64,000 nucleotides of DNA from Cenococcum geophilum 1.58 (Eukaryota; Ascomycota; Dothideomycetes; Gloniales; Gloniaceae), in NCBI GenBank assembly GCA_001692895.1, contig KV748189.1:2302432-2366431 (forward strand), in the 5' to 3' direction. Both the position numbers and the translations under genes were made by a program. Shown one piece after another: positions 1 through 42,099 of the stretch; position 1 is the stretch's first letter, and every line of letters begins with the position of its first letter. The notes beneath the pieces are model-generated. The model saw nothing but the letters and a program-made list of their open reading frames with translations. It was not told the origin of the DNA and ran no database searches.

Positions 1-92
1 TATATCTACTTACCTATCTATATCTACCTACCTATTAGCATCTACCTATTTATGCCTACCTATCTATACTACCTTAATTTAATCGATTGATT
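1..92. repeat. Pyrimidine-rich CTAC/TATC microsatellite, cut by window start
   Basis: Degenerate runs of ctacctac, tatctatc and similar tetranucleotides. It is the first block of a composite repeat; its counterpart in inverted orientation lies at about 27655-27895, where the units read gacagacag and taggcagg. Confidence 0.8.
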
Positions 93-112
93 AAATCGTT
101 TATAGTGTTGGC

Positions 113-1066
113 TAGCTAGTTATTATCGTCTAGCTTTGGCAAGGGTTGTCTAGTTCTAGCAACGGTCGTCTAGCTTTAGTAACGGTCGTCTAGTTCTAGT
201 AACGATTGTCTGGTTTTAGCAACAGTCGTCTAGTTCTAGTAACGGTCGTCTGGCTAGCGATGGTCGTCTAGTTTTAGCAACGGTCGTCTAGTTCTAGTAA
301 CGGTCGTCTAGCTAGCAACGGTTATCTAGTTTTGGCAACAGTCGTCTAGTTCTAGTAACAGTCATCTAGCTAGCGACGGTCGTCTAATTCTGGTAACGGT
401 CGTCTAACTAGCGACGGTCGTCTAGTTCTAGCGACAATCGTCTAGCTCTAGCAACGGTTGTCTAGTTCTAGTAATAGTCGTCTAGCTAGCAACAGTCGTC
501 TAATTCTAGCGACGGTCGTCTGGTTCTAGTGACAGTCGTCTAGTTCTAGCAATAGTTATCTAGCTCTAGCAACGGTCGTCTAGTTCTAGTAACGGTCGTC
601 TAGCTAGCAACGGTTATTTAGTTTTAGCGACAGTCGTCTAGTTCTAGTAACGGTCGTCTGGCTGGCGACAGTTATCTAGTTCTAGTAACGGTCGTCTAGC
701 TAGCGACGGTCGTCTGGTTCTGGCGACAATCGTCTAGCTCTAGCAACGGTTGTCTAGTTCTAGCAACGGTCGTCTAGCTCTGGCAACGGTTGTCTAGTTC
801 TAGTAACGGTCGTCTAGCTAGCGACGGTCGTCTAGTTCTAGTAACAGTTGTCTAGTTCTAGTAATAGTTATCTAGCTAGCGACGGTTGTCTAGTTCTAGT
901 AACGGTCATCTGGCTAGTAACGGTCGTCTGGTTCTAGTGATAATTATTTAGCTTTAGTAACGGTCGTCTAGTTCTAGTAACGGTTATCTGGCTAGCGATA
1001 GTTATCTAGTTCTGGTAATGGTTATCTAGTTCTAGCAATGGTCGTCTAGTTCTAGCAACGGTCCTC
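113..1066. repeat. 20-bp minisatellite (RIP-mutated copy)
   Basis: About 48 tandem units of the form tctagttctagtaacggtcg. Variants keep gacggtcgtc but show tct-TGG versus tct-TAG and TGGC versus TAGT differences. Inverse-complemented, the unit matches the GC-rich array at 27163-27545 (ccagacgaccgtcgccagaa). The differences between the arrays are mostly TG to TA, i.e. CA to TA on the other strand, the RIP signature. No reading frame is maintained. Confidence 0.9.
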
Positions 1067-1086
1067 TACTAGCTGCTATTCTAGTA

Positions 1087-1180
1087 CCTCCCTAGGTAGG
1101 GAGGATATAAAGAAGAAAGGAAGGGTAAAAAATAAGGTGGCTATATAGGGTAGAGGCACGTGTAGAGGCTATTGGGAATA
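1087..1180. other. Spacer of the composite repeat with an 8-bp inverted repeat
   Basis: Starts with cctcccta-gg-tagggagg (1087-1104), followed by a purine-rich stretch and the text ataaggtggctatatagg. The same spacer in inverse orientation is at 27056-27161, with cctcccta-cc-tagggagg at 27144-27161. This conserved non-tandem piece shows that the two satellite blocks are copies of one unit and not independent arrays. Confidence 0.8.
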
Positions 1181-1184
1181 TAGC

Positions 1185-1540
1185 GGGGACCCGATATAGA
1201 GCTTCGTGTAGAGCCTCTATACGTAGAGCTTCGCGCAGAGCCTTATACAGAGCCTCTATACGCAGAGCTTCTCGTAGAGCCTCGTGTAGAGCCTCTATAC
1301 GTAGAGCTTCGCGTAAACCCTCGCGCAGACCCTTACGTAGACCCTCGTGCAGAGCTTTATATAGAGCTTTATATAGAGCCTCTATACGTAAAGCTTCGTG
1401 TAGAGCCTTATGTAGAGCCTTATACGAAGCTTTATATAGAGCTTTATATAGAGCCTCTATGCATAGAGCTTTATATAGAGCCTCTATACGCAGAGCTTTA
1501 TATAAAGCTTTATATAGAGCCTTATACAGAGCCTCCAAGT
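1185..1540. repeat. 12-bp minisatellite (gagcttcgtgta type), copy 1
   Basis: Tandem 12-bp units such as agagcttcgtgt and agagcctctatacgt (a 15-bp variant). The period is a multiple of three, so frames stay open and yield repetitive peptides (for example Tyr-Lys-Ala-Leu repeats on the minus strand). These are artefacts of the period, not a protein gene. Same family as 7890-8161 and 26535-27045. Confidence 0.9.
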
Positions 1541-1542
1541 AA

Positions 1543-1600
1543 TAAGATTATAAGATTATATGAGATTATATAAGATTGTATAAGATTATATATAATAGTT
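1543..1600. repeat. Short AT-rich agattatat tandem run
   Basis: Five imperfect units of taagattatat/tgagattatat directly after the 12-bp array, joining it to the AT-rich sequence before the 41-bp satellite. Confidence 0.7.
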
Positions 1601-1663
1601 AAATATATAGTATATAACTTTACCTTAATCGCACGTTAAGAAATATATAGTTAGCTTTTAAAG

Positions 1664-2057
1664 TTATTAAGTAGGTTAACTATATATTAAGTTAGTTAAA
1701 TTATATATTAAGTAGGTTAACTGCGTATTAAGTTAATTGAATTACATATTAAGTAGGTTAACTGCGTATTAAGTTAGTTAAATTATATATTAAGTAGGTC
1801 AACTGCGTATTAAGTTAATTAAATTGCATATTAAGTAGGTTAACTGCGTATTAAGTTAGTTAAATTATATATTAAGTAAGTTAACTGCATATTAAGTTAG
1901 TTAAATTGCATATTAAGTAGGTTAACTGCATATTAAGTTAGTTAAATTACATGTTAAGTAGGTTAACTGCGTATTAAGTTAGTTAAATTGTATATTAAGT
2001 AGGTTAACTGCGTGTTAAGTTAGTTAATTACGTGTTAAGTTGGTTAAATTATATGTT
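1664..2057. repeat. 41-bp AT-rich satellite
   Basis: About nine and a half units. Each is a dimer of a 20-bp half (attaagtaggttaactgcgt) and a 21-bp half (attaagttagttaaattata). The gttaac core recurs every 41 bp. Units differ mainly by C/T and G/A. The satellite ends just before Gypsy A1 begins to be recognisable. Confidence 0.9.
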
Positions 2058-2189
2058 AATTACGCGAAACGCGAAAACTAAAGTCTACTTAAATCTTATC
2101 CTGCGAATATTTTCCCGATAAGAGTCTATTATAAGAAAGTATAACGTTATAACTAAGAAGCTACTATACCTTGCAGATAGCATTCTAAC

Positions 2190-5100
2190 TTTGCTTATTA
2201 TAAACTACTTTACCGCCTAAATGTTAATCGGCCTCTATACTAAAGCCATGCTCTTTTTTATTACTAAACTCTTACCTACTACCCTAATTATTCTAGGTAT
2301 ACCCTAGCTTTAGAAGCACGAGCCCTATCCTAGCTTTAGGAAACTTAAAATCTACTTTAACTTAGACTACTACTCTAGGCACTGCCTCCCGTAGGGGATA
2401 ACTGACGTTAGTAGAGACGCCCTATGTAGATACTTAGCACTACTAAGCCTAGTGCCTAGGACTATATATAAAGCCCTAATAGTAGAAGACGTTCCTAATA
2501 AAGGGGAGCCTATATAGCTATAAAGAAATAAGATAGTAAAAGACTAGACTACCTTAGCACTTAAAACTAAAATGATGGGCTAGCTAGCCTTACCAAGACT
2601 AAGGAAAAAGGTCCGCTTTATACCGCTATTATTAAGAATCTAACCCTAACCTAGGCACTATTTAAACCCTAGCCGCCTAGCCTAACACCTAGAATTAAGC
2701 CATATACCATATACACACACTACAGCTCGCGTTATAGTAAGGACTGGCTATAGAACTACTAAAACCCGGATAATAGAAACCGCGCCACCGTAACGCCTAA
2801 CCTTATACCTATCTCCCACGCGTACCGTATAGGGCCGCCGCCTTATTTCCGCCCCCCTAGGCTAACTAAGCTGTGCTAGCCTAGCCGTAGCACCGGAGAA
2901 CTAGATATGCCCTAACCTAGATAATATTAAATATACTTATACTATTAATTTCACCTAGTTCTATAAACAAAAGGATATAGGGGTGGTAAGGATCTATATA
3001 GCAGAGCTAGTAAAACTAGTTAAATAAGATAAGTACTAATAGCTACTTAAAGAGCTACCTATAGGCCTAATAGAAGTACTAAACCTATTAAAAAGGTCTT
3101 TCTATTAGCTAGTAGAAGGCGACTATATAATAAAGGAAGCCCGTAAAGTACTCCCCCCCTATTTTTATAACTTTCTTAAAATAAATCTAAAAACTAAACC
3201 TAAGCTTTTATATTGGAAGATAGTTAATACTAATATTAAAAAATTCCTAAAAGGCAAACCAGGATTAACCCGCAAAGATATTCTATAACGCCTACTAAAG
3301 GAGTTTAATAAATATATTAAGCACTTTCTCCCTAAGAACGCAGATAAGCTGCCCCCTTACCAACTATAGGACTATAAAATTAAGATTACCCCCAGAAACT
3401 AGGCCCTATACTATAAAAATAGACCACTCTTACCTACTAAACTTAGGTATATAAAGAAGTAGATTAATAAGATGCTGGATAAGGGTTTTATTTATAAATT
3501 AACCTCACTAACTGCCGCACTACTCCTCCTTGCTGCTAAGCCCGGCAGCGGTATATAAATCTACTATAACTACTAAGGCCTAAACACAGTTACTATTAAG
3601 AATTAATACCCACTGCTACTAATCCATAAGACACTTAACGCACTTTATAGTGCTAAGTACTTTACTAAACTTAATATAATTGCTATGTTTAACCGGATTT
3701 GGATTACAAAGGGCTATAAGTAGCTTATAGTATTTATTACCTAGTTTGGACTCTATAAAATACTAGTTATACTATTTAGCCTCTATAACGCACCCGCTAC
3801 GTTCTAAAACTATATTAACTATATTCTATATAACACCCTTAACAACTACTATACCGCCTACCTTAATAACGTCCTTATCTTTTCTAAAACATACGCTAAA
3901 TATACTAAGTATATAAATAAAGTCATCCAAAGACTTGGCAATGCTAGACTTTAGATTAATATTAATAAGTCTAAGTTCTACTCTACTAAAACAAAATACC
4001 TCGGCTTAATTATCTTAACTAATAGTATAACTATAGACCCTAAGAAGGTACAGGCCTTATAGGAATAAAAGGACCTAATATTAATTAAAGAACTATAACA
4101 ATTTATCTAAGGCTACTCTACTATTATTATACCTATAACAAAACTTCTAAAGAAGAATATTAGATGGCTATAGGGACTAAAATAAGCTAAATCATTTAAG
4201 GCCCTTAAGGGAGCCTTTACTTCAGCACTAGTACTAGCATACTATAACTATATAAAGAAAACAGTAGTAGAGACGGACGTATTAAATTAGGCTTTTAGCG
4301 GAGTCCTTTCCCAGTATAATAATAATAGAAAATTAAAACTGGTTGCATTCATCTCCGTAAAACACTCTACGCTAGAGTATAACTATAAGATCTATAATAA
4401 AGAACTTTTAGCTATTATTAAGGCTTTAGAGAAATAGTATCCTAAGCTATAAGGGACTAAGGAGCCGTTTAAAATTACTACCAACTATAAGAACCTATAG
4501 ACGTTTATAACTACTAAGCAGCTAAACTAGCGCTAAGTCTAGTAGGTAGAGTTCCTTTTATAGTTTAACTTTATAATTATATACAGACCTAGTAGTAAAG
4601 CCACGCTCCCTAATACCCTAAGCCGGCTACTAGAAATAAGGCCTAAGGATACTAATAATAAACGCCTCCGCCACTAAGCCCAAGTCGTTATACCTCCCTA
4701 GAAAGTTAACCCTATAATCTTAGAAGAATTACTATATAAGTCCCGTAACTCTAATAATATAGAGTTTATAGCCGCTTTAGACCCCAAAATAGCTAAAAAG
4801 TTACTAGATAAGTTAATCTAGCTAAAATACTAGGAGAACAAACTCGTAAGAGATATAGTAGCAGCCCTATATAATTAGAAAGCTTACTATTAGCCAAAGA
4901 AGATTAGGAAATTACTCTATTACAATAAGTTAAAATATAGTATTATTGATAGATAGATCTACTTCCGCTAATATCTCTTTATCCCTAACGCCCTAAACCT
5001 CTACCTAGAAGTTACCTATCGCTTTTATAGTAGCGGCCCCGCTAGTTACCCTAGCTAGGTTAAGACTTTTAACCTCTTAAACTAAATATACTAGTAGCTA

Positions 5101-6365
5101 GGAATCTCCTAGTTCACGGCTACCTTTATTAAAGACTATACCCTATACTTTCGCACTAAGACCCCCTATTCTACCCCGCCTGGTTTTTTAAAGCTACTAA
5201 AATTACCTACCCGCCCGTAGACCAATATCTTAATTAACTATATTATAACGCTGCTAGTATACTAATATTATGGTAAGGTATATAAATATATCCTTATTAT
5301 TATAGACCGCCTAACTAAAATACGACACCTTATTTTAGTAATAGGACTCTTAATAAAGGAGCTAGTTAATAGCTTTATTAATAATATATATAAGCTCCAC
5401 GGTGTACTAAGTATAATTATCTCTAATTACGGCACACAATTTATTAGCGACTTCTGGCAATAATTAAGTAAACGCCTTAAGATAACCTTGCGACTAAGCT
5501 TAGCCTAGCACCTAAAAACAGACGGCTAAACCGAAATTATTAACGCTGCCATAAATAAATACCTCTATACTTTTATTAGCTTTATATAGGATAACTAGGT
5601 TAACTACCTACCGCTTACTAAGTTTGCTATAAATAACTAAGTTAATAAGAGCATAGGCATCTCCCTATTTTTTGCAAACTATAGCTTTAACCCTTACCTT
5701 AAAATCGAGCCTGCTAGCCCCTACCTACCGATATTATTAGCATAAGTAAAGAAGGAGTTCTTTTACGCAGACTTTATAGCTAACCGCTTTAAGCGGATAT
5801 TAACACAGCTTAAGGCCCTAGCCTAGATTTTATAGTAACGCTATAAAGATAATACTAATACCTGTAGGAATAAGAGCGCGTTATTCTATAAAGGTAATAT
5901 AGTTATAGTTAGCTTAGAAAATATAAAAATAAATAAACCTAAGAAGAAATGGGACGATAAATAGGACGGCCTATACCCCGTACTCGCAGTATACTAAGGG
6001 GTAGTTATAGTAGACCTCCCTAACTATATCTAAGTAAATAAATCCTTTTATATATCTAAGGTCTGCCTCTAGGCCGCTAAAGAGATCCCTAGCTAAGCAA
6101 ATATTAATACCGTAGAGCGCCATAATATATAAGGACGAGTAGCAGAAAGAGATAATAATGGCAATATAGAAGATAAATAGGAGTTTAAAAAAATCCTTAA
6201 TATATATAACAAAGACCCCTAGGGCTTAACTTATAAGATTAAATGGAAATATTATAAGGATATAACCTAGCAGCTAAAGGAAGACCTAAAGGGTTACGAA
6301 TAAGCTATATAGCGCTTCTATAAGCAACACCCTAAGAAGCTAAGACCCCCAGACTAGGCATAAGA
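2190..6365 (+). pseudogene. Gypsy-A1 pol remnant: protease end, RT, RNase H, integrase, chromodomain
   Basis: Conceptual translation across stops shows the following in order. Protease tail at 2230-2390, with ILGIPW and a following KHEP. RT at about 3400-4080, with KLNIIAMF, FGLYK, the NAPATF region, and YLNNVLIFSK where YLDD is expected. RNase H at about 4320-4520, with YNYKIYNKELLAI and TTNYKNL. Integrase core at about 5250-5650, with DRLTKIRHL, ISNYGTQFIS and KTDG. A C-terminal chromodomain at about 6210-6350, with YKIKWKYY and LKEDLKGYE. Stops are almost all TAA/TAG at positions expected to be Gln or Trp, consistent with RIP. The first protease part does not stay in frame with the rest; relative to A2 there is a 16-bp length difference near 2120-2230. 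It cannot encode a functional polyprotein. Confidence 0.9.
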
Positions 6366-6431
6366 TAAGGAAAAGTCACGCTAGAGTCGCGGCCGACCAC
6401 CGTATTAAAATTTATAGTGGTTAAAATGTTA

Positions 6432-6599
6432 TAGAACTTTAACTAGCGGTTAAAGTTATCTAATTAGCCAAATTCTTGCTAAGAAACGCCACGCGGACTA
6501 ATTTAGGTGGCGGTATAGAGTTCTGCCGGCCTTACTTACTAAACTAACTAATTAGGATTTTCTATGCCCGGTATAGAAAATTGCTATTAGCTTAGTTAA
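6432..6599 (+). repeat. Shared 3' module, copy in Gypsy-A1
   Basis: A ~167-bp block between the pol end and the 3' LTR. It begins with an inverted repeat (aactttaac-tag-cggttaaagtt), then tatctaattag, ggtggcggtatagagttct and aggattttctat. Homologous blocks are at 59160-59327 (A2), 19406-19572 (Copia-1) and, rearranged, 30482-30645 (Gypsy-B). Confidence 0.85.
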
Positions 6600-6713
6600 G
6601 GGCGATAAGCGGAACTAATATCTTTACAGTAAAAAATAGACAACCCTATATACTGCCTATTTTTAAATTATCTATTCGGTTTAGGGACTAAACTATCTAG
6701 GGGAAAGGAGTAC

Positions 6714-6890
6714 TGTTACGGCACTAACCTAACGCATACTATCTTATACTATTTCCTACTGTTAGCTAGCCCACCACTAGCGACTTAGCGGCCGGCCCTA
6801 CTATTTATATATAATACCCCCTTTCCACCTTCTTCCCCTCTTTATACCGTAACGTAGTTATTTAGTCTACTTTATTACAGCACTGTGACA
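6714..6890 (+). repeat. Gypsy-A1 3' LTR (177 bp)
   Basis: Begins tgttacggcac and ends cactgtgaca. Matches the 187-bp LTRs of A2 at 52643-52829 and 59442-59628; about 10 bp (around atctcgtact) are missing here. Confidence 0.93.
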
Positions 6891-7575
6891 ACATCTATAA
6901 ACGCTAAAGATTAATTTAACTTATATACCTGGGCTTAACAGGAGCTTAGTAAGGTTATTAGCGTTTTACTTAATACCATTAATATAAAGGAGCTAAATAA
7001 GCTAGCTAAGAAAATAGCTAACTTATAGAGTATTATTAATTTAATAAAGCCCTCCTGTTACTTCTTTAGTAAAGAGTATAAGTTATATAGTAAACGTATA
7101 CGCTAAATAAATCTTAACGCCCTGGTTAAGAAGTTACCCCCTAATATTAGTAGTACTACTTAACAGTATTTTAATTAGTGGATTACCGTAGTTAAGAACC
7201 AATTTAAGGTTAATAACACTAACTACGACTATAAGTAACCCACGCGCTAGGCTATTAAAGGTCTTATAAAAGAAAAGATAATTACCTAACTAGTTTATTA
7301 CCGGTTAGGTACTAAGGATAGGGGTCCTTTACTATAAAATAAGTTTAAAACTATAGTCTAAGACTAGATTAGGAACCCTATAGTAAGACGCTTTAATAAC
7401 GCTACTATATACTATACGGCTGTTATAAAGGAGAACTAGAGGTTTAATGCCTTTTTAGCCCATATACGTAGCTTAGAGGACCTCTTCTTATATATACCTT
7501 TTATTAATCCTAAACAATAGGTAGACTTTTAGTTTTTATACCTTCTAGTTTACCTATCAGCGGAGATTTAAATAA

Positions 7576-8434
7576 TCCGACGGTCAATATTATTGGCCAA
7601 TATTTAGTATTGGCCAATATCGCCAAATTGCCCAATATTGGCCAATAATTCTTGGCATTCCCCACAACCCTAAATTTCTTTTATAATATTTATTATATAT
7701 ATAATAAAATGGCTTCTAATAATAAAATATTAAATTCTATACTATCTACTAGTACGGAGAGATTAAAAGATAAAAGGAACCCTAAAATCTAGTGCTATAA
7801 CGTAATACACGGGGTTTTGCTCGTCCCCTCGGCTTGCTGCCGGCTACTACCCGGAAGGAATGTGAGGCTCCGCGTATAAAAGCTCTGCACAAAGCTTTTA
7901 TATAGAGCCTCCGTGGTAGAGCCGTCCAGAACCGTCGTACGCAGAGCCGTTCTGCAGAGCTTCCGTATGCAAAGCTTCGTACAGAGCTTCGTGCAGAGCC
8001 TCGTGCAGAGCCTCCGTACGCAGAGCTTCGTACAGAGCTTCGTGCAGAGCCTCCGCAGAGCTTCGTGCAGAGCTTCGTACAGAGCTTCGTGCAGAGCTTC
8101 ATACGGAGCTTTGTGCAGAGCTTTATACAGAGCTTCGTGCAGAGCTTCATACAGAGCTTCGTGCAGAGCTTTTATACGCGGAGCCTTACATTTCTTCCGG
8201 GTAGTAGCCGGCAGTAAGCCAAGGGGACGAGTAAAACCCTAAGTATTACGTTACGTGGTATCTAGGATAAGTAGCTATATAGCGAAACTAAACAGATCAC
8301 TATGTATACAGTTATGTAAGTTTTATTTTATTTTAATGTTGCGGAAATATAATTTTCCGGTATATATTGGCCAATAACCCAATATTGACCAATATTTTAT
8401 TGGCCAATAAGCGATATTGGATCGACATCGTATT
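7576..8434. mobile_element. Satellite-loaded inverted-repeat element inserted in Gypsy-B gag
   Basis: Both ends carry clusters of the palindrome tattggccaata: 7591-7602, 7608-7619 and 7636-7647 on the left; 8365-8376, 8383-8394 (one mismatch) and 8398-8409 on the right. Inside lies a near-perfect 92-bp inverted repeat (7798-7889 versus 8162-8252) that flanks a 12-bp minisatellite. The sequence keeps many CA/TG dinucleotides, unlike the Gypsy-B around it, so it is young or escaped RIP. No transposase is encoded. The exact ends and target duplication could not be fixed. Confidence 0.7.
7890..8161. repeat. 12-bp minisatellite (cagagcttcgtg), copy 2
   Basis: About 22 units of cagagcttcgtg/cagagcctcgta, with 15-bp variants (cagagcctccgtacg), forming the loop of the 92-bp inverted repeat. 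Long open frames on both strands (Arg-Ala-Ser-Cys and Lys-Leu-Cys-Thr repeats) follow from the 12-bp period. Confidence 0.9.
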
Positions 8435-25329: not shown

Positions 25330-26262
25330 GCTGCGTTTATATAGGCTTTACTACTTTATTACTTTAACCTAAATCTACTCTTAATAGTAATTAATAACGC
25401 TTCTAATTATGCCTATAGCGGTATACTTCTATAGCCTTTAGGATATAGAGACTAACTCTACTAGTACCTAATTGCTTATTATAGTTAGAAGCTTACTAGC
25501 TTAAAAGTATAGTATAATACGCATAATAAAGAACTGCTTACTATAGTATAATACTTTAAGATATAGCGCTATTACCTTAAATACGCCGCGTATACACTAC
25601 AATTATAATAATCTTAGGTACTTTATAACCACTAAAAGCTTATTTACTCGCTAGGCCTAGTACGCTAAAGAACTAGCTAATTTTAATTTTAAGATTAAAT
25701 ATAAGCTAGGTAAAGGAAATCCTACTAATATACTATTTTGGCGCCCGGATTATACTAAAGGCTTTAAAAATAGTAGTAAGAGGATAGTTCTTAATGATAT
25801 ACTGCCTATATTATAGCAAAAGTTGTAGGTTATAGGCCTTGTGGGCGGCTCTAGTGCTATTATACTATACTAGTAAGTAGCATGTATGTAGTATACGAGC
25901 AACCCTTATAAACTTGGCGCCGACGAACTAGAGCGCCCTACTATTCTCTTTAAGACTACTTTAACTGTCCTAATGGCGCTTAACTCTAGGGAAGACCCCT
26001 TAGCTTAGGCTACGGTCCCCTATAATAACCCGGCGAGTTACCTATATATTATACGTTACTTTACTAGTACTAACTTTACATAGAGTCTTATGCCACAGTA
26101 AGAGGTAGTAGTAGCTGCTTTAGCTAAAACGGCGTTTATAAAATACCCCCCTAAGTTACTGGTTAATTTTATTTATAGAGTATAAAAAAGAGACGCCTTT
26201 ATACGCTCTATATATAATTAGTTAACCTAGAAATAAGTTCCTACTAGTAATAAGGACTATAC
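25330..26262 (+). pseudogene. Gypsy-B pol, second part: RNase H
   Basis: Continues pol after Gypsy-C. Recognisable text includes YNTHNKELLTIV followed by FKI-RYYL (stop at Trp), with the usual RNase H spacing. Next come FTTTKSLFTR, QAQYAKELANFNFKIKY (leading stop at Gln), KLGKGNPTNIL and RRPDY-type text (WRPDYTKG), the end of RNase H and the connector. The satellite element at 26263 then interrupts before the integrase. Confidence 0.9.
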
Positions 26263-26267
26263 CATCA

Positions 26268-26521
26268 GGAAAATTTTTTTTAGGCGCGTTGTTGCAGCCG
26301 AAAATTGGGGTCTGCAAAACCTGCGTAAGTCGCGATTTTAGCGATTTGCGGTAACTTGCGGCAATTTGCTACAAATACACAGGCTACTCNTGCAAATTGC
26401 TGCAAATTGCTACAAACACACAGGCTACTTGTGCAAATTGCTGCAAATTGCTAAAATCGCGACTTACGCAGGTTTTGCAGACCCTAATTTTTGGCTGTAA
26501 CAACGCGCCTAAAAAAAAACC
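26268..26521. repeat. 88-bp foldback at the left end of the 2.1-kb element
   Basis: Arms share taggcgcgttgtt, gggtctgcaaaacctgcgta and agtcgcgattttagc with few mismatches. The ~70-bp loop has a direct repeat (gctacaaa-acacaggctact) and one undetermined base at 26390. Alone it resembles a palindromic MITE. Confidence 0.85.
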
Positions 26522-26534
26522 TAATACTATAACC

Positions 26535-27045
26535 ATAAAGCTCTGCATAAAGCTCTGCACGAAGCTCTACACGAGGCTCTGCACGAAGCTCTACACGAAG
26601 CTCTACACGAAGCTCTGCGTATAGAGGCTCTGTACGAGGCTCTGCACGAAGCTCTACACGAGACTCTGCACGAAGCTCTACATCTGCACGAAGCTCTACA
26701 TGAAAGCTCTTGCACGAAGCTCTACACAAAGCTTTGCACGAGGCTCTACACGAGGCTCTATACGAAGCTCTGCGTATAGAGGCTCTGCACAAAGCTCTAC
26801 ACGAAGCTCTACACAAAAGCTCTATACGAAGCTCTACACGAAGCTCTGCGCAAAGCTCTACATAAAGCTCTGCGCAAAGCTCTACACAAAGCTCTGCGCA
26901 AAGCTCTACATAAAGCTCTACGTAAAGCTCTACACGAAGCTCTGCGTAAAGCTCTATACGAAGCTCTACACGAAGCTCTACGTACAGAGGCTCTGCACGA
27001 GGCTCTGCACGAAGCTCTGCGTACGGGGCTCTGCACAAAGCTCTG
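26535..27045. repeat. 12-bp minisatellite (gctctgcacgaa), copy 3
   Basis: About 42 units of gctctgcacgaa/gctctacacgaa plus 15-bp variants (gctctgcgtatagag); inverse complement of the 7890-8161 unit. Three overlapping long open frames over both strands are products of the 12-bp period. Confidence 0.92.
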
Positions 27046-27162
27046 CATAACACATTACTATCGAGGTCCCCGCTATATTCCCGATAGCCTCTACACATAC
27101 ACCGTAGGTAGCCACCTTATTTTTTACCCTTCCTTCCTTACATCCTCCCTACCTAGGGAGGC

Positions 27163-27545
27163 ACCAGAACGGCAGCCAGCTGAGGACCGTCCGCCAGAAC
27201 CAGACGACCGTCGACCGTCGCCAGAGCCAGACGACCGTCGCCGGAGCCAGACGACCGTCGCCAGAACCAGACGACCGTCGACCGTCGACCGTCGTCAGAG
27301 CCAGACGACCGTCGCCGGAGCCAGACGACCGTCGCCAGAACCAGACGACCGGTCGACCGTCGCCAGAGCCAGACGACCGTCGCCGGAAGCCAGACGACCG
27401 TCGCCAGAACCAGACGACCGTCGTCAGAGCCAGACGACCGTCGTCAGAGCCAGACGACCGTCGCCAGAACCAGACGACCGTCGACCGTCGCCAGAGCCAG
27501 GACGACCGTCGTCAGAGCCAGACGACCGTCGCCAGAACCAGACAA
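27163..27545. repeat. 20-bp minisatellite (un-mutated copy)
   Basis: About 18 units of ccagacgaccgtcgccagaa, some extended by gaccgtc (27 bp). Inverse complement of the 113-1066 array, with CA/TG intact. Confidence 0.92.
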
Positions 27546-27654
27546 CCACCGTTCGAATGTACAGCCAGCGAACGGCCGTAGAGAACGATTCGAATTAATA
27601 CGATCAATCGAATTAGGCGGAGCCTTCAATCGGGCCAACCTTTCCAAATTACAG

Positions 27655-27895
27655 ACAGGTAGGCATAGACAGTAGCACAGACAGGAGGCACAGACGGTAG
27701 CACAGACGGTAGGCACACAGACAGTAGGCACAGACAGGTAGGCACAGATAGTAGGCATAGACAGTAGGCATAGGCAGGTAGGTATAGGTAGGTATAGATA
27801 GACAGATAGACAGATAGGTAGGCAGGCAGATATATAGACAGATAACAGATAGACAGACAGACAGATAGGCAGGCAGGTAGGCAGGCAGGCAAGCA
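27655..27895. repeat. CAGA/TAGG microsatellite
   Basis: Degenerate runs of cagacagta, gtaggcac, gatagacag and aggcaggc. Overlapping minus-strand frames rich in Cys, Leu, Pro and Ser result from the repeat and are not called genes. Confidence 0.88.
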
Positions 27896-28082
27896 CTAGG
27901 CCTAGTTAGGAAATCAGTACACGGCTAGTGGATTATCGGGAACACCGCTAATTGACGATTTGGAGCTTTTGCGAAAGGCTTCCCCTCCTAAGTAGATAGC
28001 TCTGTATTTTATATAGTTATAATATAAATATATTTAAAAGTATATTATAGCAATCTGTGGTAATATATATAATTTAGTTACG

Positions 28083-28189
28083 ATTTATATAGTTATTATA
28101 ATTTGTATAGTTCGTACAGTTTGTAGTTCGTACAGTTTGTATAGTTCGTACAGTTTGTACAGTTCGTACAGTTTGTACAGTTTGCGCGC
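28083..28189. repeat. 9/18-bp tandem array (gttcgtacagtttgtaca)
   Basis: Roughly eleven half-units alternating agttcgtac and agtttgtac near the right end of the 2.1-kb element, followed by a unique AT-rich part and the right terminal repeat. Confidence 0.85.
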
Positions 28190-28395
28190 TATATAATTAT
28201 AAGGTAGCAAAATGCTAGCATTAGTTTAGTAGTTAAGTATTTTGCTGCGATTTGCTAGTAGACGCTGCAAACTTATTGCGAAATGCGCGGTTTGTACGAA
28301 TCGCTAACGACCATATACGACCGCCGCGATCGTACAGTTTGCGGCAATTTGCGGCAAACCGCAACAACCTGCCACAAAAAAAAATTCCTGATGAC

Positions 28396-29830
28396 CCTTA
28401 ATAATTAAGGACTCCTAAGGTAAAATAATAAGGTTTAGGTACTAAATTATATACTACAATAATAGGAGATCCTTAAGCGGAATTATGACGATCCTATAGG
28501 CGGCTACTATGGTTTTAACAGTACTTTTAAGGTAATTATATAGAAGTATATTTAAAACGGCCTTACCTAGGACCTCCGCAAATACCTAGATAATTATAAT
28601 ACCTACTAATGCTTTAAATCGCGCCGCTATAAACCCTATAGTAAGCTATAGCCTCTCTAGGTCCCTACCTAAGCCTAGCGGCATTATTTACTTAACTTTA
28701 TTATAGATTTCCTAGAGTCTAAGACTCCTAATAGCGTAGAGTATAACTCCGTTCTTATTCTTATAAACTATTTTATAAAGCTAGAATGCTACTATCTAGT
28801 ATGTAAAATAATTAATACTACGATTCGCAGAACTCTTATTTAGAGTCTTTATATAAATAGGGCCTTTAAATAATATTATCTTTAATAGGGGTAGTATATT
28901 TATAAGCGAGTACTAGAGCACTATATCCTACTATCTTCGCATTTAATGTAAACTTAGCACTATATTCTACCCGTAGATAAATAGTTAGATATATAGCGTT
29001 AGAATTAGGAGCTTAAGGTATACCTACGTATATTTATAAACTGGGAATAGTCTAATTAGGCCTCCCTACTTAAAGAAGCAGCCTTTACCTATAAATTTAA
29101 GGTCTATACTATAATAAAGCGTTCCTTTATTAAGCTCGCCTATAGCTAGCTGCCAAACGTCCTAAACGGAGCCCTAGACGGCGTCTAAGACGCCTAGCAA
29201 GGTAGGGAGGGGTCTAAGTTAACAAATATTAAACTTATAGAGACGTATTTATAACGCCTGCGCTTTATATATAAGGTAGTAGCGGTGTTAATAATATATA
29301 CCTAATAGCTTTAGGTAAAATACTATAATCGTCACTATCTAGCTAAGCATTTCGCCGTCGGTAAACAAGTCCTGCTCTTTTTTAAGAATATCTATACAAA
29401 ACGTCCTTATAAGAAGCTTAACAGTAAGTTTATAGGACCGTTTTAGATTATAAAGCGCGTAGGGCAGTAAGTATATAAGCTAAAGCTCCTACCTACTATA
29501 GTATAGCTCTACCTAGTCTTTTATATCTCCTTACTAGAGCCTTATAGATTACGCCCTAGGTTTTAACCCCTAGTAGTAAAAGAGCTTAAGGAAGGCAGCT
29601 AGGAAGTAGAAGTAATTGTTACCTATTAAGATCGTGCTAAATAACCATAGTACCTTATTAAATGGCTAGATTAGCTAAATAAGTATAATAAATAGAAATA
29701 GAAGACAGAACTTAAGAATTGTTAATAACTACTAGATAAGTACCGTAAGTAGGATACCCTAGCTTTATAGCCAAAGCATAGGCAAAAGTAAATGCTACTA
29801 TTAAAATATAACCTGCATTAAAGCAGAGTA
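28396..29830 (+). pseudogene. Gypsy-B pol, third part: integrase and chromodomain
   Basis: The integrase zinc-binding start reads EILKRNYDDPIGGYYGF (His to Tyr changes) with a later YQCFKSRRYKPYSKL. The core has FIIDFLESKT and NSVLILINYFIKL (about 28690-28790). The C-terminal segment reads GKQVLLFFKNIYTKRPYKKL, GPFQII (stop at Gln) and VFYISLLEPYRLRP (about 29360-29570). A chromodomain follows at about 29600-29740 with YLIKWLD. Stops are those expected from RIP. Confidence 0.92.
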
Positions 29831-40298: not shown

Positions 40299-42099
40299 TC
40301 AGACGTGCTCAATTTTTTCCGCAACTATGGCCTTCTCGATCTCCGGAGTAATACCTTGCTCAGTTGCCACATAGGTGAGCTCGGTACCCCTGCCGCCATG
40401 TGTTTTAACAACTAACTCGTGCGTGTTATGGTCGATAAGAATGTCTTCTGCGTAAACTATGACATCTTCAGTGTCTCCAAAGATCTTCGCCATTTCCTCC
40501 AGGGGAATTCCTTTCGTTTCGGGCAGAACGAAGAACATGACGATTGCGCCAAGGCCGGTGATGATTATAAACACCTACAACGAACATATTAGCTGCTAGT
40601 TTCCTTCCGAGGGGCATACTTACAAGATAAAATTTCCAGCCAATATTTGCAAAGGCTGTAGCACTAGCCTGAAGATAGACGAGATCCGTAATGGCGATTG
40701 TGGCCATTGACAAACAAAGACCCTTTGCGCGGACGTGGTTGGGGAAGAGTTCGCCATAGAACACGACCCCAACCACATCAATTCCTAAGCCGTATATCGC
40801 GAGGAATATATAAAAGGCGGCAACTCCAACACCCAAACCGACCTTGTTTGTGCCTGCTTCAGCATAAGTAGCTACTATAGCAGCTTCGAGGATGAGTGCT
40901 ACGCAACAGCCAGAAATTCCGAATAACATGAGCGGCCGACGGCCGATCCGATCCATTAAGGCCGCTCCGACGAAATTAGAGATAATCCCGACTGTTATCC
41001 AGCCACATTGAAGTGCGAGCTGGTCCTTTGTGCCGTATCCAAGAGCTTTATACAATGTCGGGCCGTAATTGTTTATGACCAGCACAGCTGTGCTCTGCCC
41101 GATAAACGCGAAGCCCATTGCCAACAACGAACGCTTGCGGTAACTTGGTCTTCTAAACATTTCCACCTACTTCGCGTCAGTTCATTTTATATATCCCTAA
41201 TAGACCGTCCGACATACCCATCCAGGATTTAGAGTTCGGTCAAGCTCTGATTGCTTATGCATCTGGTAGAACTCTCCACGTGCAAACTCTTGGTCGGGAT
41301 CACTTTTAATTGTGTGAAGCTTGTACACAATCTCTCTTGCTTTCTCCACTTTCCCCTGCATTAAAAGCCATCTTGGCGACTCCGGTGTGAAGAAGGTAAT
41401 AATGAGCATCATCAGCGGCCAAATTAATGCTAACCCCAATGGCCCGCGCCATTGGGTAACGGGGTCCTTCGCGAAATAGAAAGCCATGCCCATATACGAG
41501 GCAAGACCGTATCCTAAAGCAATATTTACGCCGTTCATACCGACGAAAAAACCGCGTAATTCGGGAGGAGCGAGCTCGGCGGAGTATACCGGTGCTACGG
41601 GAGTCAGCATTTTACACAACTTTCACCCCAGGCATGGTATACTTACTGACGGCAAGGAAACCCCAACTACCAATTCCAGCAAAAAACCGGGCTACAATAA
41701 ACATTGCAGCGCTCTTCGAACCGACGAGAAGAGCTCCACCAAACAGGGAGAAGACAGAACAGTATATGACTCCAGCTTTTCTGCCCCATCTGTCCATAAC
41801 ATAGCTCACAACTAGGATTCCGAAGAAAGCACCAGCCTGTCATTATCAGTGCACGATTCCAGAATGGCCCAGATCACACGGACCTGAAAAACTCCGGACA
41901 TGGCTCCGATAAGTTCATTGGCATTCGAGGTCAAAGCTTCAGACTTTAGGTCGAACAATTTCATGTACACCAAGAATGACGGTTCTCCTAAAGTAGTACC
42001 GATAATAGATGCTGGGTATCCAAATGCAATCTGCCCAAGGGAGACAAGAAAGCAAATAAAGAAGTTGTACCAATTGAATTGGCGTTTTTGTAGGGACAT
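40299..42099 (-). CDS. MFS sugar transporter (sugar porter family), five exons, intact
   Basis: Five exons, spliced from the minus strand: 42099-41884, 41836-41647, 41594-41218, 41166-40624 and 40574-40299. Introns are 47, 52, 51 and 49 bp with GT-AG ends (gtccgt, gtaagt, gtatgt, gtaagt). Joined, they give 533 residues and a stop, usual for fungal sugar porters. I chose the ATG at 42099 (MSLQKRQFNWYNFF); an upstream in-frame start would need TTG. Diagnostic motifs: DRWGRK (87-92, loop 2-3), PESPRWLL (206-213), DRIGRR (333-338, loop 8-9) and PETKG (460-464). Hydrophobic segments fit the twelve membrane helices of the family, so it probably sits in the plasma membrane and brings in a hexose or related sugar by proton symport. 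The substrate cannot be told from sequence. No RIP stops. It is the only clearly functional gene in the window. Confidence 0.95.

Follow-up and report, generated by a model that had tools for sequence, protein, structure and literature searches.

A dispersed family of gene-less, satellite-bearing transposons, probably of Plavaka type, in the fungus Cenococcum geophilum

Introduction

Non-autonomous transposons that bear satellite repeats are already known, as the accessible parts of two accounts make clear (PMC4079207, PMC9659126). The first of these presents Tetris of Drosophila virilis, in the portion available, as a non-autonomous, palindromic and modular element with internal tandem repeats of varying copy number, and as having ends in common with a second element that is believed to depend on the same transposase (PMC4079207). 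The available part of the second links the CACTA-like element Jozin of Chenopodium with satellite DNA and mentions MITEs and pearl/CvA elements that bear tandem repeats (PMC9659126). Among fungal transposons, the PlavakaB elements are given, in the accessible part of a recent study, the termini 5'-CATCA..TGATG-3' and duplications of 2 or 3 bp (Kojima 2025, PMC12730594).

Satellite DNA is usually studied apart from transposons, and the family described here, which we call family I, joins both. Its host, Cenococcum geophilum, is credited with a repeat-rich genome of 178 Mb and has Glonium as its neighbour among the fungi compared in the available portion of the genome report (PMC5023957). We analysed a stretch of 64,000 nucleotides from this fungus (the window), in which an initial annotation had delimited a non-autonomous, foldback-like element filled with tandem repeats and lying within the retroelement Gypsy-B. 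We find that the sequence at 26263-28393 is one copy of a large, dispersed family of gene-less transposons, and that it had been correctly delimited.

Results

Structure of the window copy

The termini of the element read CATCAGG..CCTGATG and its borders are exact, the inverted similarity between the two ends covering 33 nt at 82% complementarity, in agreement with the roughly 33 bp first claimed (Table 1). At the left end the arms of a hairpin (26274-26359 and 26433-26518) extend over 86 nt and are 92% complementary, and the inner end of this head, TATTAGG, is reached at element position 264. No internal hairpin of the right end occurs among the 10 inverted repeats listed, and the description of a strong hairpin at the left end only therefore holds for the window copy. 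Tandem Repeats Finder likewise agrees with the five kinds of tandem array that had been recognised, and places a short 41-mer array inside the head.

The sole long open frame of the element, 272 aa in length, crosses the arrays and has no Pfam match; no Plavaka transposase (PF18759) is encoded, which bears out the earlier statement that a transposase is lacking. Between two of the arrays, the mid segment at 27048-27184 holds TTTTTTACCCTTCCTTCCTTACATCCTCCCTACCTAG, which may resemble either a fungal CT-rich promoter or the pyrimidine tract that precedes a splice acceptor.

In composition, the element is less RIP-like than its surroundings, as its reportedly un-mutated base composition had implied: the ratio (CA+TG)/(AC+GT) is 0.85 within the element against 0.31 in 10 kb of flanking sequence, with a smaller contrast in TA/AT (1.61 for the element, 1.82 for the flanks). 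Given the difference in the former ratio, Gypsy-B had likely undergone most of its RIP-like change by the time that the window copy was inserted, or else the copy escaped RIP.

Table 1. Positions in the window of the family I element and its parts, of the adjoining host sequence and of the family II element.
Feature	Positions	Strand	Basis or occurrence
Second element, family II, with same satellite core; Plavaka-type left end at 2120; extends past left edge of window	1..2120	-	
Target site duplication AC, left copy	26261..26262	.	element border
Non-autonomous satellite-bearing element, family I	26263..28393	+	both ends, 2-bp duplication, empty sites
Left terminal inverted repeat, CATCAGG...	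26263..26295	+	inverted-repeat listing
Foldback head, composed of outer end and an inverted inner copy that ends in CCTAATA (inward reading, TATTAGG)	26263..26526	+	
41-bp repeat within head, 2.4 copies	26356..26453	+	Tandem Repeats Finder
12-mer array (A12), unit AAGCTCTGCACG, about 42 copies	26538..27047	+	Tandem Repeats Finder; in 31/31 elements
Unique mid segment with pyrimidine-rich tract	27048..27184	+	in 31/31 elements
20/68-mer array (B20), unit CGACCGTCGCCAGAGCCAGA	27185..27547	+	Tandem Repeats Finder; in 31/31 elements
13/40-mer array (C13)	27651..27782	+	Tandem Repeats Finder; in 24/31 elements
4/12-mer array (D4)	27794..27888	+	Tandem Repeats Finder; in 31/31 elements
9/18-mer array (F9)	28084..28184	+	Tandem Repeats Finder; in 17/31 elements
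Tail with subterminal GCGGCAATTTGC-type repeats	28187..28393	+	in 31/31 elements, at least partly
Right terminal inverted repeat	28361..28393	-	inverted-repeat listing
Target site duplication AC, right copy	28394..28395	.	element border
Host retroelement, weak Integrase_H2C2 match right of insertion	28463..28621	+	E 0.014

Copies elsewhere in the genome

The assembly searched comprises 177,193,698 bases in 162 contigs. Of 2619 candidate places found in a search of it, 40 were scored and yielded 208 matches; 39 of these places together with the window copy make up the 40 loci considered here, which are the best-scoring of the 2619 candidates and no random sample. Both ends are present in register at 31 of the 40, delimiting elements of 2007-3762 bp, and the two ends of the window copy are thus found together elsewhere. 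The nine loci left out (L013, L014, L026, L028, L033, L037, L042, L045 and L046) did not pass the thresholds used: an end or both ends were absent or too weak, or the ends lay on opposite strands.

An exact target duplication of 2 bp flanks 28 of the 31 copies, or 29 if the left border of L047 is moved by one base. The commonest duplication is TA, seen in 13 of the 31, and among the 29 matching copies 16 have a duplication other than TA. The flanking dinucleotides fail to match in only two copies, L017 and L030, and the difference in L030, CA against TA, is the change expected from RIP.

With as many as 3 mismatches allowed, the 33-base end pattern was hit 277 times in forward and 277 times in reverse orientation, and a reversed control pattern 0 times and once; the resulting figure of 554 for the 177-Mb genome is a count of sites and not of elements. 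In the two sets of ends listed, a reverse partner lies within 6 kb of 29 of the 51 forward ends. Of the core copies, 32 of the 48 listed on contigs C1-C23 have no listed family I end nearby. One of these, L069, does belong to family I, its variant end having escaped the pattern, and some of the others adjoin ends of family II, described below. The locus L048, with ends 7565 bp apart, was considered as a long autonomous element and rejected, as it consists of two satellite elements at 357-3476 and 5379-7921. These two family I elements (G000:C6:2979000-2987300) have the same orientation and are separated by about 1.9 kb.

Order and turnover of the satellite core

The same order of parts (head, 12-mer array, mid, 20-mer array, 4/12-mer array, mid3, tail) is kept in all 31 copies, a further segment, mid2, being recognised in 11. 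The arrays themselves vary in extent across the 31, the 12-mer array spanning about 480-1440 bp and the 20-mer array about 50-1160 bp. The closest comparisons are instructive in this respect: L012 and the window copy are identical over 260 bp on the left and 230 bp on the right, yet L012 is 335 bp longer, with a 12-mer array of 667 bp against 517 bp and a 20-mer array of 166 bp against 378 bp. Similarly, the ends of L016 and L020 are 98.9% alike while their lengths are 971 bp apart. Since copies as close as these differ in length, the arrays change faster than the ends, and the suggestion that the element 'breeds' repeats is borne out in the sense that array lengths vary between near-identical copies. 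The arrays may grow and shrink in place through slippage or unequal exchange.

Within the mid segment, a 34-mer shows 98% conservation across 36 copies; it occurs at 245 genomic sites, with none for its control.

The window also contains, at 7798-8253, a third, unrelated palindrome, whose arms of 99 nt are 91% complementary and enclose a 12-mer array of the type seen in family I. Neither Plavaka end accompanies it.

Plavaka transposases and their ends

The Plavaka transposase (PF18759) was matched at 123 scored places in the same genome. Every one of the 123 matches listed has in-frame stops and so none represents an intact donor. Two of the copies, L051 and L052, align over 4.97 kb at 88%. 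The left end of one Plavaka family, in which a flanking TA is followed by CATCAGGAAAATATT.., has as its first 12 bases CATCAGGAAAAT, and these are also the first 12 bases of the window element. In seven copies the left end reads [CT]AT[CT]AGGAAAATATT, and the flanking dinucleotide is TA in six of these and TT in L052. For the right end of this Plavaka family there is a single candidate. A different right end, at 6756 of L052, was discarded because L052 is interrupted at this point and five other copies run on through it. In a separate set of copies, Plavaka group B, the unit must exceed 9.4 kb and have its ends outside, since L050 and L053 are 92% alike over the whole 9.4 kb compared.

A comparison of the 123 Plavaka places with the 200 family I ends listed, out of 716 sites counted in the two end searches, gave no pair closer than 14 kb; about three pairs within 20 kb would be expected by chance. 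An autonomous, transposase-bearing element with the 33-bp CATCAGGAAATTTTTTTT ends of family I, a partner envisaged in the initial annotation, was not found near these 200 listed ends; at the borders searched of L049, L050 and L051, which do bear transposase, family I ends are absent. The best-scoring Plavaka match (L049 4370-5122, at C30:1712561-1713541; 230 bits) has few stops and no CATCAGG ends nearby, and is followed downstream by a 10-mer array of about 92 copies (CCACTGCTTT).

A second family with the same core

At its left edge, the window contains part of a second element, which we assign to family II. The sequence at 1-2120 is RIP-altered, with a (CA+TG)/(AC+GT) ratio of 0.37, and comprises the 20-mer and 12-mer arrays of family I, but its left end is TATCGGGAAAATATTCGCAGG. 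A further Plavaka-type left end (L064; C14:2300840, minus strand) lies some 1.6 kb upstream of the window.

Family II was sampled as the window copy and the first four copies picked from the end list on contig C1. In all five, the 12-mer array, the mid segment and the 20-mer array follow one another in the order of family I. Among the four copies in which the right end was found, three have TA on both sides and the window copy has CT and TA. Over 128-153 bp, the left ends of these copies match those of two transposase-bearing Plavaka copies at 85-94% identity. The end pattern of the family, with up to 2 mismatches, occurs at 290 and 296 sites, against 7 and 1 for the control.

The relationship between the two families can be read in two ways. 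In a tree of 38 cores family II forms one group (support 86/86, 90% of bootstrap trees), in a topology of which no branch reaches the stricter support mark, and this grouping is compatible both with a single move of the core between the end types and with ancient common ancestry. We infer that a single exchange, through recombination or capture, probably brought the core from one end type onto the other. The alternative, that families I and II inherited their core from one ancestor whose ends then diverged, with no transfer, we regard as doubtful though still a serious contender. It would account at once for the single grouping of the family II cores, for the order of parts common to both families and for the fact that the ends of both families begin CATC[AG]GGAAAAT; against it, the ends are unrelated beyond about 12 bases while the mid segments of the window element and of family II are still 83-89% identical.

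Assignment to a transposon class

The terminal signature of PlavakaB is found in the window copy, CATCAGG..CCTGATG, with which the 31 copies were aligned, and the exact 2-bp duplication of 28 of the 31 copies agrees with that group in length. CACTA/EnSpm elements proper, with 5'-CAC..GTG-3' termini and a 3-bp duplication, differ from the present element in both respects, since it has CAT..ATG ends and duplicates 2 bp. MITEs are short elements, roughly <800 bp, that have no coding capacity; the window copy resembles them in the latter, though the 31 copies, at 2007-3762 bp, are well beyond their size. We consider it highly probable that the element is a non-autonomous, cut-and-paste transposon of Plavaka type (CACTA/EnSpm-Mirage-Chapaev group), with satellites as cargo and a transposase supplied in trans. 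A Plavaka transposase provided in this way would cut at the outer CATCAGG ends and move the whole package.

Membership of another superfamily with 2-bp duplications, such as the Harbinger/ISL2EU group or Tc1-mariner, the CATCA end then being a coincidence, seems to us improbable. The prevalence of TA among the duplications (13 of 31) and the failure to find a donor transposase with family I ends among those listed would both sit comfortably with it, and Harbinger-related elements with TA duplications do exist in fungi according to the accessible part of the study cited above (PMC12730594). However, more than half of the matching duplications (16 of 29) differ from TA, the five terminal bases and the duplication length fit PlavakaB, and family II carries the same core on left ends 85-94% identical to those of Plavaka copies.

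The foldback head

A strong stem, with an alignment score of at least 78, is present in 15 of the 31 copies, the other 16 scoring 57 or less. Because target duplications are seen in copies of both kinds, the stem is dispensable for movement. This weighs heavily against a foldback element of the kind represented by Drosophila FB or Tetris, mobile through a long palindromic end, which the left palindrome of the window copy, with its 86-nt arms at 92% complementarity, and the internal tandem repeats might suggest and which we now think very unlikely. Elements of the FB/Tetris type carry, at either end, long inverted repeats that are palindromic or bear repeats; here the 86-nt stem is confined to the left, and the two ends have 33 bp in common. 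The 'foldback-like' label of the initial annotation is accordingly dropped, with a strong stem in only 15 of 31 copies, target duplications around the others as well, and ends that fit PlavakaB.

Under the Plavaka-type assignment, the head has features of its own. Of 34 elements, 18 have a discernible inner end, which reads TATTAGG in 17, CATTAGG in one and CATCAGG in none; the pattern used accepted either base at position 4, and the test was in this sense a fair one. The fourth base is T in all 18 inner ends and C in 54 of 62 outer ends. The head resembles a miniature but complete element, with an inner end that may have been switched off: in copies with a foldback head, an inner TATTAGG or CATTAGG would be disabled and the outer end hence used. 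Since 16 of the 31 copies are without a strong foldback head, this idea is not a general one.

Heads standing alone as elements were also sought, and there is no inverted pair less than 400 bp apart among the 100 exact ends listed. Thirteen short end pairs in the merged list were rejected as solo heads: all include an end from the search with the TATTAGG pattern, a search biased towards inner ends, and they fit the inner arm of a head.

Insertion site and empty sites

The flanks of the element (26040-26262 and 28396-28619) were joined, with one AC kept, into an empty-site query of 447 bases. The joined flanks are uninterrupted at 40 of the 40 scored places, at 90-92% identity; the query is covered in full at 39 of these places, and at 38 the matched sequence has exactly its length of 447 bp. 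Gypsy-B copies elsewhere therefore lack exactly the element and one AC, as foreseen for empty sites without 26263-28393 plus 2 bp. That the sequence is instead a chromosomal satellite cluster or a native part of Gypsy-B, an idea for which the tandem arrays filling most of its length might speak, is refuted by these precise empty sites, with the fixed ends and target duplications adding to the case against it. Two-ended copies, target duplications, empty sites and the excess of ends over the control show that the structure of the element did not arise by chance, and the first three of these vindicate its original description as a non-autonomous terminal-inverted-repeat transposon carrying tandem repeats.

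The insertion had been placed between the RNase H and integrase regions of Gypsy-B. With X substituted for stops, the right flank gave a match to SH3_Tf2-1 (E 1.8e-13), beyond Integrase_H2C2, and more weakly Chromo (0.019), and these domain matches place the start of the host integrase just to the right of the insertion. The integrase side of the claim thus stands; on the RNase H side, the left flank gave no domain in the five of six frames searched.

Further along the window, at 40468-41166, is a fragment of a sugar transporter (PF00083) whose best match is an environmental protein, 94% identical, and whose closest named protein is from Glonium stellatum (78% identity).

Discussion

Since the family was probably moved by a borrowed transposase of Plavaka type, its satellite repeats would have spread as transposon cargo. 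The exact ends, the empty sites and the close copies of different length make satellite growth and loss datable against identical flanking ends, in a fungus whose repeats undergo mutation by a RIP-like process as well. The probable swap of a core between two end systems offers a test case for the acquisition of cargo by elements that have no genes.

A more sweeping scenario, speculative and in our view rather unlikely as a whole, would have these satellites spread mainly as cargo, with the core passed between at least two Plavaka end systems, the conserved segment functional as a promoter, splice or replication signal, and a miniature head with its inner end switched off allowing the transposase to carry everything as far as the distant end.

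The literature searched, mainly outside subscription papers, yielded no satellite-bearing non-autonomous Plavaka element, and two features seem new within that literature, namely a core of five arrays borne on two types of Plavaka end and the presumed switching-off of the inner end. As far as the accessible parts of the sources go, the nearest systems compare as follows. PlavakaB, in the portion at hand, shares CATCA..TGATG termini and the 2-bp duplication with the window element; it encodes a transposase, whereas the window element encodes none and is filled with satellites, and it is described from Agaricomycotina, whereas the present host is a dothideomycete (PMC12730594). Tetris, in the part of its description available, has its repeats in both terminal inverted repeats; family I has internal arrays of five kinds, and its palindrome is found at one end and in about half of the copies (PMC4079207). 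A MITE of Porphyromonas gingivalis with a minisatellite likewise places a tandem repeat inside a non-autonomous inverted-repeat element, but is bacterial and, judging from the accessible text, apparently of much smaller scope than family I (PMC4596501). Finally, Jozin and the other class II satellite carriers covered in the available part of their account bear one satellite as a rule and come from plants or animals (PMC9659126), whereas the present core has five arrays in fixed order, in a fungus and on two types of end.
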